57,150 bases of DNA from Ruminiclostridium sp. (GTDB lineage: Bacteria > Bacillota > Clostridia > Oscillospirales > Ruminococcaceae), in the NCBI GenBank assembly GCA_024682455.1, contig JAIKZF010000032.1, positions 1-57,150 on the forward strand, given 5' to 3'. Made by a program: the position numbers and the translations under genes. This document shows, piece by piece, positions 1 through 6,778 of this stretch (the first letter of the stretch is position 1; the number at the start of each line of letters is the position of its first letter). The notes beneath the pieces were generated by a model, which was not told where the DNA came from, did not search any database, and saw only the letters and a program-made list of their open reading frames with translations.

Positions 1-576
1 AACAGCGCGAACGCGGCTCGCAAAACGTATCAGACTACCGCGACAACGAAAGCGGCGGCCTATTCGGGAAGCCTGTCGGAAGCGGTATCGGGTATCGCAT
101 CGTCGGTGTCCGATCTCAGCAAAGCTATGTCGGGAAGCGACAGCGAGAAGATGTACGATGCGGCTAAAAGCTTTGTTGACAGCTACAACGATATGTACTC
201 TGCAGTCAGCAATTCACGCAACAGCTTTGTTTCGGGGCGCACGTCGTTCATAACCAATACCGCGAAAGCATATTCGGGAACGCTCGAAAAAGCCGGTGTT
301 ACAGTCGGCAAGGACGGGAAGCTGTCTATCGACAAGGAGAAGTTCATGGAAGCCGATGACAAGGCACTTAGCTCCGCACTGGGCAGGAACTCCACATTCA
401 CAGGCTCTGTGGTATCGCAGGCGGTGAATGTCTCGCGTTACTCGGACAGCTTTTCGTACACGAGCTACGGCGGTTATAACAGCTATGGCGGCTACTCCAA
501 AAACAGCCTGTTCGATTACGCCGGAACAACGCAAAGCGGTGTGCTTGCAGGATATCTGATGAATAAATGGATATAA
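1..576 (+). CDS. FliD-like / cell-surface protein, C-terminal part (5' truncated by window)
   Basis: The reading frame is open from base 1, so this is the end of a longer gene and the GTG at 106 is not its start. The visible 191 codons are rich in Ser, Ala and Thr. They contain a segment (FVDSYNDMYSAVS, then LEKAGVTVGKDGKLSID) that resembles the C-terminal region of flagellar cap proteins (FliD), where a YN motif precedes a 'G+ + + + DGKLS+D' stretch. The tail is Tyr/Gly/Ser-rich (SYGGYNSYGGYS). No flagellar genes follow, so a non-flagellar surface or cap-like protein is equally possible. The function is inferred only from this local resemblance. Confidence 0.55.
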   Translation, partial: NSANAARKTYQTTATTKAAAYSGSLSEAVSGIASSVSDLSKAMSGSDSEKMYDAAKSFVDSYNDMYSAVSNSRNSFVSGRTSFITNTAKAYSGTLEKAGVTVGKDGKLSIDKEKFMEADDKALSSALGRNSTFTGSVVSQAVNVSRYSDSFSYTSYGGYNSYGGYSKNSLFDYAGTTQSGVLAGYLMNKWI

Positions 577-605
577 GACAGCCTTGACAAAACACAGACA
601 CAACA

Positions 606-641
606 ACGCCCGCGGGGATTGTCCTCGCGGGCGTTTGCTTA
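606..641. terminator. Rho-independent terminator between convergent genes
   Basis: A 13-bp GC-rich stem (ACGCCCGCGGGGA paired with TCCTCGCGGGCGT, 606-618 with 622-634) has a 3-nt loop and a short T-rich tail. It follows the FliD-like gene and overlaps the end of the converging toxin gene, so it may serve both strands. Confidence 0.8.
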
Positions 642-947
642 TAGTTGTTCAGTTATATTCTGCCCGCCGTACAGGAATCGGGCAATAAAAACTGACTTTT
701 CCGCTTCGTTTATTTTGTAGAAAATCAGAAAATTTCCGACAACAGCGTAGTGATAACCGCGCGCGGCAATGTTCTCGTCGTGATAGAGCGGATACATAAG
801 CGGGTTTTCGGCAATGCGAGCTACGGTTTCTTCCGAGCGGTCAAGCAGATTTGCAGCGGCTCCGGCATTGAACAGTTCCGTTTCTATATATGTCAGGGCG
901 CTGTCCAAGTCAGCCTCGAAAACATCGGAAATAATGGTTTTATACAT
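639..947 (-). CDS. Type II toxin of the RelE/ParE family
   Basis: The 102-residue protein has the size and layout of RelE/ParE superfamily toxins: an N-terminal helical hairpin (FEADLDSALTYIETEL), a central basic/aromatic strand region (YPLYHDENIAARGYHYAVVGNFLIFYKI) and a final strand with Arg (VFIARFLYGGQN). Family members are ribosome-dependent mRNA interferases (RelE) or gyrase poisons (ParE); sequence alone does not decide which. The gene overlaps the antitoxin gene by 8 bp and is translated after it, the usual antitoxin-first order. It ends in a shared terminator. Confidence 0.85.
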   Translation of the reverse strand: MYKTIISDVFEADLDSALTYIETELFNAGAAANLLDRSEETVARIAENPLMYPLYHDENIAARGYHYAVVGNFLIFYKINEAEKSVFIARFLYGGQNITEQL

Positions 948-1239
948 TATGTCTGCTCCTTAATCTTCCAAAGGCTTCCTTCGCGTCCGAGACCTTGCCT
1001 GCATTAAGATCGGCTTCGGCTTCATCGAGTTTGTTTATAAGATCGGTCTTTGAGCGAACCATAATGCGCTCTGGCGCGGGAAGCTTCACAGCAAAAGGCA
1101 GTCCACCGGTCAGGTTGACCTGACAGAGAAACATATTGACAGCTTCGGAGATCGAAATACCGAGCATATCAAGCGTTTCCTCGGCATTCGCCTTGACCTG
1201 TTCATTAACGCGGATATGGAGAGTTTCGGTCTTTGCCAT
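940..1239 (-). CDS. Antitoxin of the RelB/DinJ family
   Basis: The 99-residue protein begins MAKTETLHIRVNEQVKANAEETL and continues with LGISISEAVNMFLCQV, the ribbon-helix-helix pattern of RelB/DinJ antitoxins. The N-terminal part binds DNA and the C-terminal tail (LNAGKVSDAKEAFGRLR) would wrap the toxin. I chose the ATG at 1239 because an AGAAAGGA ribosome binding site lies just upstream; an in-frame ATG at 1281 falls on the promoter -10 region and is unlikely. The pair presumably autoregulates through the palindrome over its promoter. Confidence 0.88.
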   Translation of the reverse strand: MAKTETLHIRVNEQVKANAEETLDMLGISISEAVNMFLCQVNLTGGLPFAVKLPAPERIMVRSKTDLINKLDEAEADLNAGKVSDAKEAFGRLRSRHNV

Positions 1240-1267
1240 AGTATCAGTCCTTTCTGTACTTTTCTGT

Positions 1268-1300
1268 ATACATTGTATCACGTTTTAAACACAATGTCAA
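1268..1300 (-). promoter_or_regulatory. Promoter and operator of the toxin-antitoxin pair
   Basis: On the minus strand TTGACA (1295-1300), a 17-bp spacer and TACAAT (1272-1277) form a near-consensus sigma-A promoter. The perfect inverted repeat ATACA-A-TGTAT (1268-1278) covers the -10 box, a good place for autorepression by the ribbon-helix-helix antitoxin. The promoter is seen directly; the operator role is inference. Confidence 0.85.
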
Positions 1301-1587
1301 CTATATTTTGAAAAGCGCCTGAAATCATTTGCAATAATGGTATAGAGTAGGTATGATTACCCCGCGTCTTTTGAGCGCACAGAAGCGCAAAAATCAGCTT
1401 TTTTCGCCCCGGATTTGTCTGTTACGGTAAGAGGCAGCTGTTGCTTTTCGGTATCATTTTACCCGTTAAGCCGCCCTGTTAACAGGCTCATTTCAGAGGA
1501 AAGAATAATTCCTTGAAAAATATACCGCCGGACGGATAGAACTTTTCTATCCCCCAGTTAACAGGATATCTTGTATTTTGACGTGAA
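1301..1587. other. Intergenic region, no gene seen
   Basis: No supported reading frame is present. The only structure noticed is the perfect 12-bp palindrome CCTGTTAACAGG (1475-1486), with a related half-copy (GTTAACAGG, about 1557-1565) downstream. The left boundary of the mobile module may lie in this stretch, but no repeated end sequence was identified. Confidence 0.4.
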
Positions 1588-1651
1588 GTGTCCCATATAT
1601 GGAACACTCGGCTCCAGCCCTATTGACATCGTGATTTTTTCCTGATATAAT
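1588..1651 (+). promoter_or_regulatory. Strong promoter with upstream 20-bp palindrome, driving the large ncRNA
   Basis: TTGACA (1623-1628) and TATAAT (1646-1651) are perfect consensus boxes 17 bp apart. Upstream, at 1588-1607, lies a 20-bp palindrome with a single mismatched pair, centred on CCATATATGG; it could be a regulator site. Transcription should start near 1658, in front of a region with no convincing ORF but dense RNA secondary structure. Confidence 0.85.
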
Positions 1652-1657
1652 GTACTC

Positions 1658-2397
1658 ACGCGAACGAAAAATCATACAAGGTGAGCATTTAGCGGGCAGT
1701 ATTTTTTACGATCCCAACGCTCTATGGGAGTAACGAAAAATGACTCCCTTACAAGAGCCCAAGGGGTGGCAAATTGCCATGTCCCCTCTCACGGCTGATT
1801 ACTAAACTATCGGAACTCCGAACGAATCGTTCCCTCAGCTTCAAACCACCACCTCGAAATAAGGTACTGGTCTTACCGCTGAACAGAGTACCTCAAGGTA
1901 CGATATATATAACAGAATAACAGCGATCAGGTTACATTCCTCTCACCGCCGAAAGGCAAGCGACAGAAGATCGCGCGACGACTCCGGCAACGGACGAGCG
2001 GTTTTATTCTTCATTACAGCAGGTTGCTCCTGCTGCGCGATGACGGGTGATAGGTATAATGATACTTCCGCTTGAATGGAAACATTGGCGGCTATTCCAT
2101 AAGAATGGACAGAGGGCGACAACCCTATGAGGCAGCTTTAGCGAGCTCCGGCCTGAATCGTTCCCCGCGTCAGGGAAGTTGAGGACAAATATGACAGCTT
2201 AATGCAAGGTCACGGAAATTCCGTGCCGAACATAAAAATCCTTGCATTGCAGAAAAGATCTGCTGATTTTGACGGGAGAACTATGCCCGTTTGAAATCGA
2301 GCAGATGCCCGAAACGGGAATCTGCTCATTACCCAAAGCTGTTTATATTTTCACAATTGAATACATAGATAGCGTTCCAATTTCGGAGCGCTTTTTC
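1658..2397 (+). ncRNA. Large structured non-coding RNA (ornate-RNA type; ROOL/GOLLD-like by character)
   Basis: A perfect promoter precedes and tandem terminators follow about 740 nt without a convincing ORF. Visible stems include GGGAGT/ACTCCC (1725-1746), a GGGGTGGCA-AAT-TGCCA hairpin near 1763-1789, GGTACT/AGTACC (1863-1892), GCGATC/GATCGC (1924-1974), AGCAGG/CCTGCT (2018-2034) and GAGCAGAT/ATCTGCTC (2299-2327). Three hairpins carry GNRA tetraloops: GAAA near 1951, TCCG-GCAA-CGGA at 1983-1994 and AATG-GAAA-CATT at 2075-2086. A long-range helix pairs CCTCAGCTT near 1832 with AAGTTGAGG near 2177. Near 2202-2256 a 9-bp stem (AATGCAAGG/CCTTGCATT) encloses a second hairpin. Large ornate RNAs such as ROOL and GOLLD share this size, architecture and mobile-element setting, but I cannot confirm family membership. 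No group II intron domain V or reverse transcriptase is seen. Confidence 0.7.
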
Positions 2398-2435
2398 TAT
2401 TTTCAGCACGGTCAACATCGTGCTATTTTTATTTT
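2371..2435 (+). terminator. Tandem rho-independent terminators ending the ncRNA
   Basis: The first hairpin pairs AGCGTTCC (2371-2378) with GGAGCGCT (2385-2392) and is followed by TTTTT. The second pairs AGCACG (2405-2410) with CGTGCT (2419-2424) and is followed by ATTTTTATTTT. Two in a row suggest tight insulation of the RNA from the mob genes downstream. Confidence 0.85.
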
Positions 2436-2453
2436 AGAAATGGAGGAACTACC

Positions 2454-2726
2454 GTGCAAAAAAGTACTACCCAAAACAGATACCCCTCTGAAAAATCCAA
2501 GGCGTTATCACAATATTGTGATAGCAAAAAAGGCGTCCATACCGTGGACACCCTGCGCGAAAAAATTGCATACCCCCAAAATGCTGCTTTCTTGAAAACG
2601 GGGTCAAAGGCTGACCAGCAAGCATATGATTGTGGTACCACAATCAGCGTTTTCGCGATTTTTCTGAGAAAAAAATCAGCTGCACTTTCGCTTGTTGGGG
2701 CATATCCCCAAACCCCTCTGTCTTGA
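2454..2726 (+). CDS. Possible 90-aa ORF with a ribosome binding site; may be non-coding
   Basis: A GGAGGA motif lies six bases before a GTG at 2454, giving a 90-codon frame (starts MQKSTTQNRYPSEKSKAL). The frame runs across two long perfect palindromes and shows no recognisable domain, so it may only be an accident of the oriT-like region. It has no obvious coupling to mobC, which begins 37 bp after its stop. I record it because the ribosome binding site is good. Confidence 0.25.
   Translation: MQKSTTQNRYPSEKSKALSQYCDSKKGVHTVDTLREKIAYPQNAAFLKTGSKADQQAYDCGTTISVFAIFLRKKSAALSLVGAYPQTPLS
2506..2646. other. Candidate origin of transfer (palindrome cluster upstream of mobC)
   Basis: The stretch contains an 18-bp perfect palindrome (TATCACAATATTGTGATA, 2506-2523), a GTCCA/TGGAC hairpin (2535-2549) and a 20-bp perfect palindrome (TGATTGTGGTACCACAATCA, 2627-2646). 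The two large palindromes share the half-site ATTGTG. Imperfect direct repeats of about 30 bp (2568-2598 and 2700-2729, both starting GCATA then CCCCAAA and ending TTGAAAA) lie within and after it. Placement directly before a MobC-family gene is typical of oriT. No relaxase gene is present, so nicking would have to come from elsewhere. Confidence 0.45.
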
Positions 2727-2763
2727 AAAAAACACTCACGAAAAAACATTGAAAGGATTGATC

Positions 2764-3099
2764 ATGATGAAACAAAATCTTTCGCGCTCGATACAGATCA
2801 AGTTTCGGGTAAACGAACACGAACGCGATGTTATTCGCCACCGTATGCAGAAGATGAAAATTGATAATCTCGGATTGTATATGCGTAAGGTCGCGCTCGG
2901 AACCCCGCTGTATGTTGTTGACCTCTCGGACATTAATGAAATGTGTCATGACATCACCGGCATATCCCGGAATATCAATCAGATTTCCAGGCGTATAAAC
3001 GCTGATGACATCGTGTATGCCGAAGATGTCCGGCAGATAAAACGGCAACAGGATGAAATATGGAAAATTCTGAAAAAGATCCTGACCAAGCTGCCGTAA
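2764..3099 (+). CDS. mobC: MobC-like relaxosome accessory protein
   Basis: The 111-residue protein begins MMKQNLSRSIQIKFRVNEHERDVI and has the layout of MobC-family mobilisation proteins. An N-terminal ribbon-helix-helix-like segment (IKFRVNEHERDVIRHRMQKMKIDNLGLYMRKVAL) is followed by the family-typical 'ITGISRNINQISRRIN' helix and a basic C-terminal helix. MobC proteins bind oriT and help the relaxase open the strand. I chose ATG 2764 because GAAAGGA stands seven bases before it; a longer frame from 2692 lacks a ribosome binding site. It is the first clear gene after the palindrome cluster, consistent with autoregulation at oriT. A GGGAGCCC/GGGCTCCC hairpin follows at 3126-3148. Confidence 0.85.
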   Translation: MMKQNLSRSIQIKFRVNEHERDVIRHRMQKMKIDNLGLYMRKVALGTPLYVVDLSDINEMCHDITGISRNINQISRRINADDIVYAEDVRQIKRQQDEIWKILKKILTKLP

Positions 3100-3125
3100 G
3101 CTGCTTACATTAATCATAGAGGAAT

Positions 3126-3148
3126 GGGAGCCCGGAAACAGGGCTCCC
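3126..3148. other. Hairpin between mobC and tnpW
   Basis: A perfect 8-bp stem (GGGAGCCC paired with GGGCTCCC) with a 7-nt loop sits 26 bp after the mobC stop. No T-tract follows, so it is a weak terminator or an RNA-processing/stability element rather than a clear end of transcription. Confidence 0.5.
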
Positions 3149-3196
3149 GTAACCGAAAAATCTCGATACATCACATTCAGAAAGGGGATTTTTCAA

Positions 3197-3382
3197 ATGA
3201 AAAATGACATCAAAGAAGAAACAATGACCATACCTGACAGAGTGTCTGTTTACGAGATAAACGGCACGACCTACAAGGTACGGACACACTTCAATCTCGA
3301 CTGTAAGGAAACGCTGTCGGACATTGTCGGCAGGCTGATACTTCAGGAGATTGATGAAATGGAATGTGATCAGGTTTCGTGA
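3197..3382 (+). CDS. tnpW: TnpW family transposon-encoded protein
   Basis: This 61-residue protein matches the small TnpW family carried by Clostridia elements with large serine recombinases (Tn4451 type). The core is VSVYEINGTTYKVRTHFN then CKETLSDIVGRLILQE: a 'Y.I.GTTY.V..HF' strand pair followed by a helix. Its role in the element is not established. AGAAAGGGG upstream is a strong ribosome binding site. The gene lies between mobC and the recombinase, supporting one mobile module. Confidence 0.8.
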   Translation: MKNDIKEETMTIPDRVSVYEINGTTYKVRTHFNLDCKETLSDIVGRLILQEIDEMECDQVS

Positions 3383-3407
3383 AGCCTAACCGCATTTATT
3401 CCACGGT

Positions 3408-3519
3408 CATATTGACAACGAGGCTCGATGCGCGCGGTAGTCAGGCAGCACGGGCAGGCACCCCCAAGGGGCTGCTGCCCGGCTCCCAGCCTACCACACG
3501 CAAACTCATTGTCAATATG
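3408..3519. repeat. Long imperfect inverted repeat between tnpW and the recombinase
   Basis: The arm CATATTGACAACGAG (3408-3422) pairs with CTCATTGTCAATATG (3505-3519) in 14 of 15 positions. Inside are further nested stems: GGTAG/CTACC, and CGGGCAG/CTGCCCG around CCCCAAGGGG. The whole 112-bp segment can fold into one long hairpin or cruciform. It covers a 64-codon frame (3379-3573) that I regard as spurious. It could be a recombination or transfer site, or a structured leader upstream of the recombinase promoter. Confidence 0.75.
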
Positions 3520-3594
3520 CTTTCGCGGCATAAACGCTGTTCTCTGCGTTTTTTGTTACGACATCAGCGGTGATTTATCCAATTGAAACTTTAA

Positions 3595-5385
<1,791 letters not shown>

Positions 5386-5587: not shown

Positions 5588-6778
5588 TTATTCAGGTATG
5601 GTCTGCGGCGGTGAAGCAGGTGAAGTCGTGATCTGCGTGTACATCACGACTACATCCTCCTGCCGCGTCTCCTCGCCGTACTCATCGACGCGGGAAGTCT
5701 GCGGCGCAAATTCGTAGGTCACGACAAACGGCTCCTGCTCCCATACTCCGAGCGCTTCGGCGAGCTGCTGTATGCGGGCGCTGCCGACCTCGAACCTATC
5801 CGCGTGCTCCATGATGTTCGTTATCATCATTCCCGTGTCCGTGAACCATATCGCCTTGTACGGTAATCCGGCAGACTCGCTGCTCACGGAGATCGTGAAC
5901 AGTGTGCGGTACTCCGGAAAGCTGTCCTCGGTGTGATCGGGCAGGTCTCTGCAATCGTCGAGGAACTTCTTTATTATCTCCGTCTTTTCGGCGTCGATCT
6001 GTATCGGGTCATATTGCAGCAATGTGTTCCCGCTGAACTGCGGCGAGGGCTGTATCATATCGAAGATGCCGCTGTTCATGAGGTCGAGCGCGTCCACGAG
6101 CGTGCCGAGATCCTTCGCCCAATAATCGCAGTTCCGGAATGAGCAGTATTCGTCTGTACCCTCGTATTTCACGGCGACCGCTGCCTCCGGAAGCACGTCC
6201 TTTATCGCGTACACTTCGGCGTTGATATAGAAATCCTCCTCCGAAAACGGTTCACGGGTGCTCATCGTTACATCGTACAGCTTCTCGCCCACGGAGCTCT
6301 CCGGGATAATCCCGACACCGCCCTCCAATCTGGATCCACGATATACCCCGTCGCCGTACGTGAACTCGCGGAATTTGACGTAGGCGGGCATCTCCTCCCA
6401 GCCGACCTGATAGCCCGTGTCCGGGTCGAGCACTATGCAGTACGTCTCGGGTATCGCTGTCGCGGCGACCGTTTCTCCGTAACTCTCATCTGTAATAAAA
6501 CCGGCAGTCTCCTGTGTTACATGATCGCGGCTCACTAAGTCGCCGGTGGTGTTCGGGACACCGTTTGCGGGGCTGCCTGCGCCGGGAGCGTTCCTGCCGA
6601 GAAGCACCGCCGCTGTTATGGCTCCTCCCGCCGCGACGCATACCGCCGCAGCTATCCCCAACGGCTTCAAGATATACGCCGGGGACTTCTTAAAGCTGTA
6701 ATCCGCCGCCTTCTCTGCTATGTCGTCGCGTATCTCCGACACCGCGGCGTACATTTTCAATCCTCTTGCGTTCATCAT
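5588..6778 (-). CDS. Membrane protein paired with ECF sigma factor (anti-sigma candidate)
   Basis: The 396-residue protein has a short cytoplasmic N-terminus (about 1-33), one membrane segment (about 34-61, AYILKPLGIAAAVCVAAGG) and a large extracellular part of unknown fold. Its ATG overlaps the TGA of the sigma gene (ATGA at 6775-6778), so the two are translationally coupled. That architecture and position fit an anti-sigma factor that holds the sigma at the membrane, but no zinc anti-sigma motif is visible and the outer domain is not recognised. ATGs at residues 2 and 9 are alternative starts. A hairpin follows the stop at 5559-5587. Confidence 0.7.
   Translation of the reverse strand: MMNARGLKMYAAVSEIRDDIAEKAADYSFKKSPAYILKPLGIAAAVCVAAGGAITAAVLLGRNAPGAGSPANGVPNTTGDLVSRDHVTQETAGFITDESYGETVAATAIPETYCIVLDPDTGYQVGWEEMPAYVKFREFTYGDGVYRGSRLEGGVGIIPESSVGEKLYDVTMSTREPFSEEDFYINAEVYAIKDVLPEAAVAVKYEGTDEYCSFRNCDYWAKDLGTLVDALDLMNSGIFDMIQPSPQFSGNTLLQYDPIQIDAEKTEIIKKFLDDCRDLPDHTEDSFPEYRTLFTISVSSESAGLPYKAIWFTDTGMMITNIMEHADRFEVGSARIQQLAEALGVWEQEPFVVTYEFAPQTSRVDEYGEETRQEDVVVMYTQITTSPASPPQTIPE

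Follow-up and report, generated by a model that had tools for sequence, protein, structure and literature searches.

What kind of RNA lies just ahead of the mobilisation and recombination genes of a Ruminiclostridium sp. (Ruminococcaceae) element, and what might it do for that element? The stretch of DNA we analysed, referred to here as the window, comprises 57,150 nt of contig JAIKZF010000032.1. A first-pass annotation of its letters had read positions 1588-2435 as one ornate non-coding RNA of about 740 nt in a mobile module, with a perfect promoter and tandem terminators, possibly akin to ROOL or GOLLD. ROOL and GOLLD are large, structured RNAs of mobile elements; the window RNA resembles them in size, structure and mobile-element setting, but has no Rfam match to either. 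Our analysis places it in the pemK RNA family, an assignment that is well supported by sequence comparison, and makes it probable that this is an antitermination RNA of the type of canT from Tn916, which would read through its own terminators into mobile-element genes. The features are collected in Table 1.

Table 1. Features of the RNA locus and of the genes that follow it (window coordinates).
Feature	Position	Strand	Basis
Promoter and first ~85 nt of leader, separate module	1591-1739	+	89% over 149 nt to L142 (G252:C12)
Sigma-70-type promoter, 12/12, extended -10 (TG before -10)	1623-1651	+	Promoter scan
Conserved pemK/canT-type RNA	1820-2198	+	79% over 1820-2198 in L137
Possible long-range helix	1833-1842 with 2175-2184	+	Pair counts in window and four relatives
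boxA-like position of relatives, degenerate here (TATATAACAGAATA)	1906-1919	+	Alignment with L035/L036
Kink-turn-like motif, CGC-GAC-GA-helix(GCAA loop)-GA-GCG	1974-2000	+	Letters checked
Hairpin H1 before core, CAGCAGG/CCTGCTG	2017-2035	+	Covariation, alignment A1
pemK RNA core (RF02913)	2056-2130	+	36.7 bits vs gathering score 34.8
3' H-type pseudoknot, CCC 2163-2165/GGG 2173-2175 and GTCA 2169-2172/TGAC 2192-2195	2163-2195	+	Covariation, alignment A2
Terminator 1	2371-2392	+	Hairpin then T-run, by scan
Terminator 2	2405-2424	+	Hairpin then T-run, by scan
First ORF past terminators, 90 aa	2454-2726	+	No Pfam match
MobC/NikA-like mobilisation protein	2764-3099	+	PF21983 E 1.1e-10, PF05713 E 1.4e-08 on ORF 2692-3099; start codon by eye
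TnpW-like protein	3197-3382	+	PF14202 E 2.6e-08
Large serine recombinase	3649-5310	+	Resolvase, Recombinase, DUF4368, Zn_ribbon_recom

The outline drawn by the first-pass annotation held in part. Its promoter is a TTGACA-N17-TATAAT site in which all 12 positions agree with the sigma-70-type consensus, one of two such sites in window 1-5000 (1623-1651 and 3599-3627), and both terminators are hairpins followed by T-runs. Among ORFs of at least 80 aa, just two touch 1588-2435 (2242-2595, plus strand, 117 aa; 2429-2749, minus strand, 106 aa), in keeping with the earlier remark that no convincing ORF is present; the plus-strand ORF has no Pfam match. The predicted fold of 1656-2396, at -246.8 kcal/mol, lies far below that of shuffled sequences (mean -198.7, sd 6.3, n=20; z -7.6), as expected of the structured RNA that had been proposed, and the letters of all three GNRA tetraloops are in place (GAAA 1951-1954, GCAA 1987-1990, GAAA 2079-2082; flanking stems read by eye). 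The possible long-range helix could form 10 of 10 pairs in the window and 7, 7, 8 and 8 of 10 in four genus relatives, where shifted registers reach 7 in three, and its five-pair core changes on one side only among these relatives.

The segment is not a single unit. We compared window 1300-3660 with 71 genomes of the genus, of which 18, including the window's own, match some part. The 3' portion is conserved as a block: besides the relative given in Table 1, three loci (L138, L139, L140) match at 77-83% over 1820-1889 and 1902-2198, and two more distant relatives retain 2035-2191 at about 71%. Beyond 2198 there are a few short matches, some of them at the terminators. The promoter and early leader match one other genome (G252) alone, where they precede a different sequence that looks transposase-like by eye; the next best match to 1585-1822, the window's own aside, is 34 nt long (E 9.8e-4). 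Since genus homology covers 1820-2198 while 1591-1739 matches G252 alone, the window joins a promoter-leader module to a conserved RNA of ~380 nt. The claim of an ornate RNA thus stands, whereas its reading as one unit of ~740 nt gives way to a composite of promoter-leader and conserved RNA block. The terminators are kept more locally: terminator 1 was found by scan at the equivalent position in six of six close relatives (L158, L160, L162-L165) and was absent from two of two more distant ones (L159, L161), and a second hairpin with T-run stands at the position of terminator 2 in the same six relatives by eye, the scan itself not reporting it. Several short sequences in the segment recur. An exact 11-nt direct repeat, GAATCGTTCCC, occurs inside the RNA at 1824-1834 and 2155-2165; a leader hairpin, GGGAGTAACGAAAAATGACTCCC, lies at 1726-1748, with a like hairpin in L161 near 797; GTAACGAAAAATGAC has one further copy in the genome (G000:C22:557-571); and the hairpin word GTAACGAAA..TGAC, sought as a flexible pattern, is found at two places in the genome.

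Searched at Rfam gathering scores, the whole window yields two matches, one a distant tRNA and the other pemK RNA (RF02913), the sole match above cut-off at this locus (E 7.6e-05 in 911 bases, 0.0048 over the whole window). The conserved start of RF02913, AUAAUGAUACUUCCG, and its three hairpins are present, with four non-standard pair positions in the middle hairpin. Relaxing cmscan of 1550-2460 up to E 5 adds three matches, all below their cut-offs, one of which is dinG RNA. Neither search (window at gathering scores; 1550-2460 to E 5) matched ROOL, GOLLD, raiA or group I or II introns, and blastn of window 1600-2440 against plasmids and phages gave no match. Where the annotation had left the choice between a known and a new class, the answer is a known one, and the proposed kinship with ROOL or GOLLD is not supported. 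The window differs from the family model in having a conserved RNA of ~380 nt against 61 and a core score close to the cut-off. Conservation well past the 61-nt Rfam model was also seen across 23 fetched loci plus the window (12 sequences per alignment). Within the Ruminococcaceae, 70 of 197 genomes carry a match to RF02913, 68 of them over cut-off, and its Rfam type is Cis-reg only. dinG RNA (RF03082) matches the same place in the window, at 25.5 bits, but below its gathering score of 46.9. Among three dinG-like loci displayed (one over cut-off, two below), two carry a boxA-like element upstream; in L126 and L129 it reads TTGAAAACCGAATA and lies 170 and 112 nt upstream, and L129 apparently has a second such unit downstream. 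pemK RNA was probably described in a 2017 study of 224 candidate RNAs. In the available parts of two other papers it appears as a figure-legend example of RNAs near defence genes (PMC11061315) and as a test set (PMC11507696).

Covariation, which the annotation had named as a check on the ornate-RNA reading, is present in the 3' pseudoknot and in hairpins. For H1 we used alignment A1, built by an anchor search over 62 sequences (60 pemK loci, the window and L125, a Tn916-like element) that returned 47, the window's anchor being set by hand; 12 were left out, one as malformed (L050), three as near-duplicates (L055, L056, L094) and the rest for poor anchors by eye (L037, L040, L042, L061, L066, L071, L072, L089), and L125 was added by hand, giving 36. 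Across these, H1 is 74.1% paired with a covariation score of 0.632, against 0.204 in shuffles and equalled by 0 of 500, while a slide by -1 reaches 0.438 and two of five measures are weaker: 374 of 500 shuffles equalled H1 in pairs changed on both sides, and 5 of 500 did so in further pair types. Alignment A2 rests on an anchor found in 28 of 62 sequences, from which L047, L065 and L071 were omitted as spurious by eye, leaving 25 (24 distinct). In it, pairing holds in 91.9% of cells for the pseudoknot together with the preceding hairpin, both sides have changed in 99 cells, and the covariation score is 0.714, against 0.192 in shuffles (0 of 500) and at most 0.14 in slid controls. Because the anchors select motif-keeping loci, the A1 and A2 counts hold for those loci. 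Upstream of H1, the motif at 1974-2000, which we call kink-turn-like from its resemblance to the general consensus, has like anchors, ACGCCANGA and GAGCGANAA, in many relatives.

Many pemK RNAs also carry a boxA-like element. Of 58 loci searched (56 pemK loci, the window, which is a miss, and Tn916; four others were left out because their upstream sequence was too short), 34 have a 14-mer of this kind 90-300 nt ahead of the core: 18 copies are exact, 10 have one mismatch and 6 have two. Control windows gave such a match in ~0.5% of 2137 cases, and reversed segments in 0 of 58. The window has no match within 2 mismatches, and the position is degenerate in the aligned genus relatives as well. 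The exact pattern occurs at 30 sites in 12 genomes (the reversed pattern at 0), with 0 sites in the window's own genome and in one other of the 12. Twelve of the 30 precede a pemK core, and eight, all in two genomes (G013, G132), lie in the 16S-23S spacer ~300 nt before the 23S signature. Ten have no assignment, among them L118, a pemK match that the core pattern failed to pick up. According to the available part of PMC10250234, NusB binds a boxA upstream of 23S in E. coli rRNA operons. Nus factors would presumably take part via boxA in those relatives that carry one.

A possible function for the family comes from Tn916. According to the available text of PMC11658703, canT is a cis-acting, processive antiterminator, most likely an RNA, that acts on heterologous terminators; it is not complemented in trans. 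A cmscan of the Tn916-like element carried by pCTN1046 (L125) gives a pemK match at L125:5933-6033 (55 bits, E 6e-09), between orf8 and xis, which is the place of canT as that text describes it. canT contains a pemK RNA. The inactivating S3 substitution replaces the ATA that starts 283 nt past the orf8 stop (PMC11658703, available text); counted from that stop in L125, the triplet is 5933-5935, reads ATA and forms the first three bases of the pemK match. An inactivating deletion of 162 nt from the same source maps to L125 5879-6040 and takes out the entire match, and the active 452-nt fragment begins, by our mapping, at a boxA-like TTGAAAACTGAATA. The same text reports that S3 barely altered activity, if at all, when placed in a 400-bp fragment, that shorter fragments varied, some being active and some inactive, and that activity could not be deduced from predicted structures, so the triplet mapping is suggestive only. 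The terms Rfam, conserved RNA, pemK, boxA and NusB are absent from the main text of PMC11658703 as available, and the literature matches listed contain no link of pemK RNA to canT or antitermination.

The window RNA shares with canT the pemK core and the proximity of recombination genes. By eye, canT has a boxA-like element and kink-turn-like words upstream, in positions that correspond to the window by alignment, and a sigma-like ORF lies upstream in the window's relatives, likewise by eye. One mark by which we recognise the canT type, a homologous pemK core in a comparable position within a mobile element, is present in the window; a boxA-like 5' element, a mark proposed here rather than established, is lacking. 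The window differs from canT, too, in having no clear boxA and no sigma-like gene, in its 3' pseudoknot, which canT lacks by eye, and in terminators directly downstream, whereas in Tn916 excision has to occur before transcription from the canT promoter meets terminator T1 (PMC11658703, available text). The antiterminator conAn of pLS20 offers a looser parallel: it is an RNA at the start of a conjugation operon but works with a protein, ConAn1, as processivity factor (PMC8955417, available part). As a pemK RNA, conAn2 gave no match at E <=10 in pLS20 1900-4700, its placing there being guessed.

The genes beyond the terminators (Table 1) are those of a mobile element, and the family keeps such company widely. 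In 48 of 61 pemK loci (60 hand-chosen from ~130 matches, plus the window), a co-directional serine or tyrosine recombinase, PemK or ParA gene lies downstream; the classes overlap (serine recombinase 22, tyrosine recombinase 17, PemK 12, ParA 8), seven loci have <1.2 kb of downstream sequence, and each protein cluster is named from one representative. Upstream, 22 of 61 have an ORF of clusters C4, C6 or C20, whose representatives match sigma-70 region 4, and the cluster member in L087 shares 56% identity with the sigma-like protein of Tn916-like elements. In three ParA-type loci, the 20 kb past the RNA hold eight or nine ORFs of 150 aa or more that run the same way as the RNA; L131, one of the three, also has ORFs totalling 1800 aa open on the opposite strand. 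The window's close relatives show the order sigma-like ORF (by eye, four of six), RNA, terminators, small ORF, followed by a recombinase, again by eye, where the sequence extends far enough; L164:2600-3170, read in a presumed frame, had no Pfam match. In the window itself the sigma-like gene of relatives was not seen, and none of the ORFs tested at 2242-5310 proved to be a relaxase, which may mean that the element is decayed. A strong promoter or a terminator beside the RNA is not supported as a family-wide rule: a simple scan finds a promoter of at least 10/12 upstream in just 9 of 61 loci, the window included, and a terminator directly after the RNA in 5 of 51 segments forward against 3 of 51 in reverse, the window's own two terminators lying outside the segment scanned. 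Several pemK RNAs (L050, L062, L061, L063, L071, L082, L084, L092 and others) sit no more than a few hundred bases from a contig end, as if assembly had broken at repeated elements that carry them. The stretch between tnpW and the recombinase, window 3389-3554, has many copies in genus genomes and an inverted self-match of 70% in the window, and is possibly an oriT or repeat element; a ParE/RelB toxin-antitoxin pair sits beside the element on the minus strand (639-1281).

On the antitermination reading, transcription would start at the promoter, and the nascent RNA over 1820-2198 would fold into the kink-turn-like helix, H1, the pemK core and the 3' pseudoknot. Still attached to RNA polymerase, this RNA would turn the enzyme terminator-resistant, letting it pass 2371-2424 into the mobC-tnpW genes and possibly the recombinase, while polymerases from other starts, lacking the RNA, would stop at the terminators, which would insulate the element. 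We infer from the likeness to canT that the window copy antiterminates and contacts RNA polymerase, and the tie of the family to canT makes it probable that this copy governs how its own mobile element is expressed. Against this reading stand the weak pemK match here (36.7 bits) and the recombinase's own perfect promoter, TTGACA-N17-TATAAT (12/12, 3599-3627), directly before the gene. Doubt comes chiefly from the low core score and the degenerate boxA, from the mixed canT S3 result, and from the lack of a sigma-like gene and, among the ORFs tested, of a relaxase.

The same doubts feed an alternative that we consider unlikely, namely that this is a decayed, non-functional pemK RNA in a remnant element: the core score is weak, the boxA is degenerate, no relaxase was found among the ORFs tested and the sigma-like gene was not seen. 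However, the kink-turn-like motif, H1, the pseudoknot and both terminators are intact, the promoter is perfect, and the boxA change is common to genus relatives, some of which retain the upstream ORF and recombinase. A stand-alone trans-acting or structural RNA like ROOL or GOLLD, with terminators that merely end the transcript, would also fit a strongly folded RNA bracketed by promoter and terminators. We rate this as quite improbable given the lack of a ROOL or GOLLD match, the co-directional recombinase, PemK or ParA genes downstream in most loci, and the failure of canT to be complemented in trans (PMC11658703, available text). The large ornate RNA on a mobile module is therefore retained from the first-pass annotation, while its free-standing assembly yields to cis-acting antitermination as the reading that the evidence favours.

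Cis action could equally be local, the RNA sensing a signal and remodelling only the adjacent terminators as an attenuator or riboswitch. Its place upstream of terminators and genes would suit such a device, as would the competing pairings near 1833-1842, 2163-2165 and 2173-2184, but ~170 nt separate the end of the conserved body (2198) from terminator 1, 46 of 51 scanned segments have no terminator between the RNA and the first ORF, and heterologous terminators respond to canT (PMC11658703, available text); the chances of an attenuator seem correspondingly slim. Processive antitermination of the canT type remains our preferred reading.

More broadly, pemK RNA, dinG RNA and canT could form one superfamily of antitermination RNAs of mobile elements that borrows the host ribosomal boxA, thereby recruits the Nus machinery and stands at the head of integration or conjugation operons, with the window representing a sub-lineage that has lost the boxA and would rely on its fold, including the 3' pseudoknot that canT lacks, to hold RNA polymerase; we regard this proposal as evenly balanced. 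As the boxA is shared with rRNA spacers, the involvement of Nus factors is directly testable. Through its tie to canT, the orphan pemK RNA family acquires a function that can be tested, and integrative elements may commonly be controlled by antitermination through RNA.
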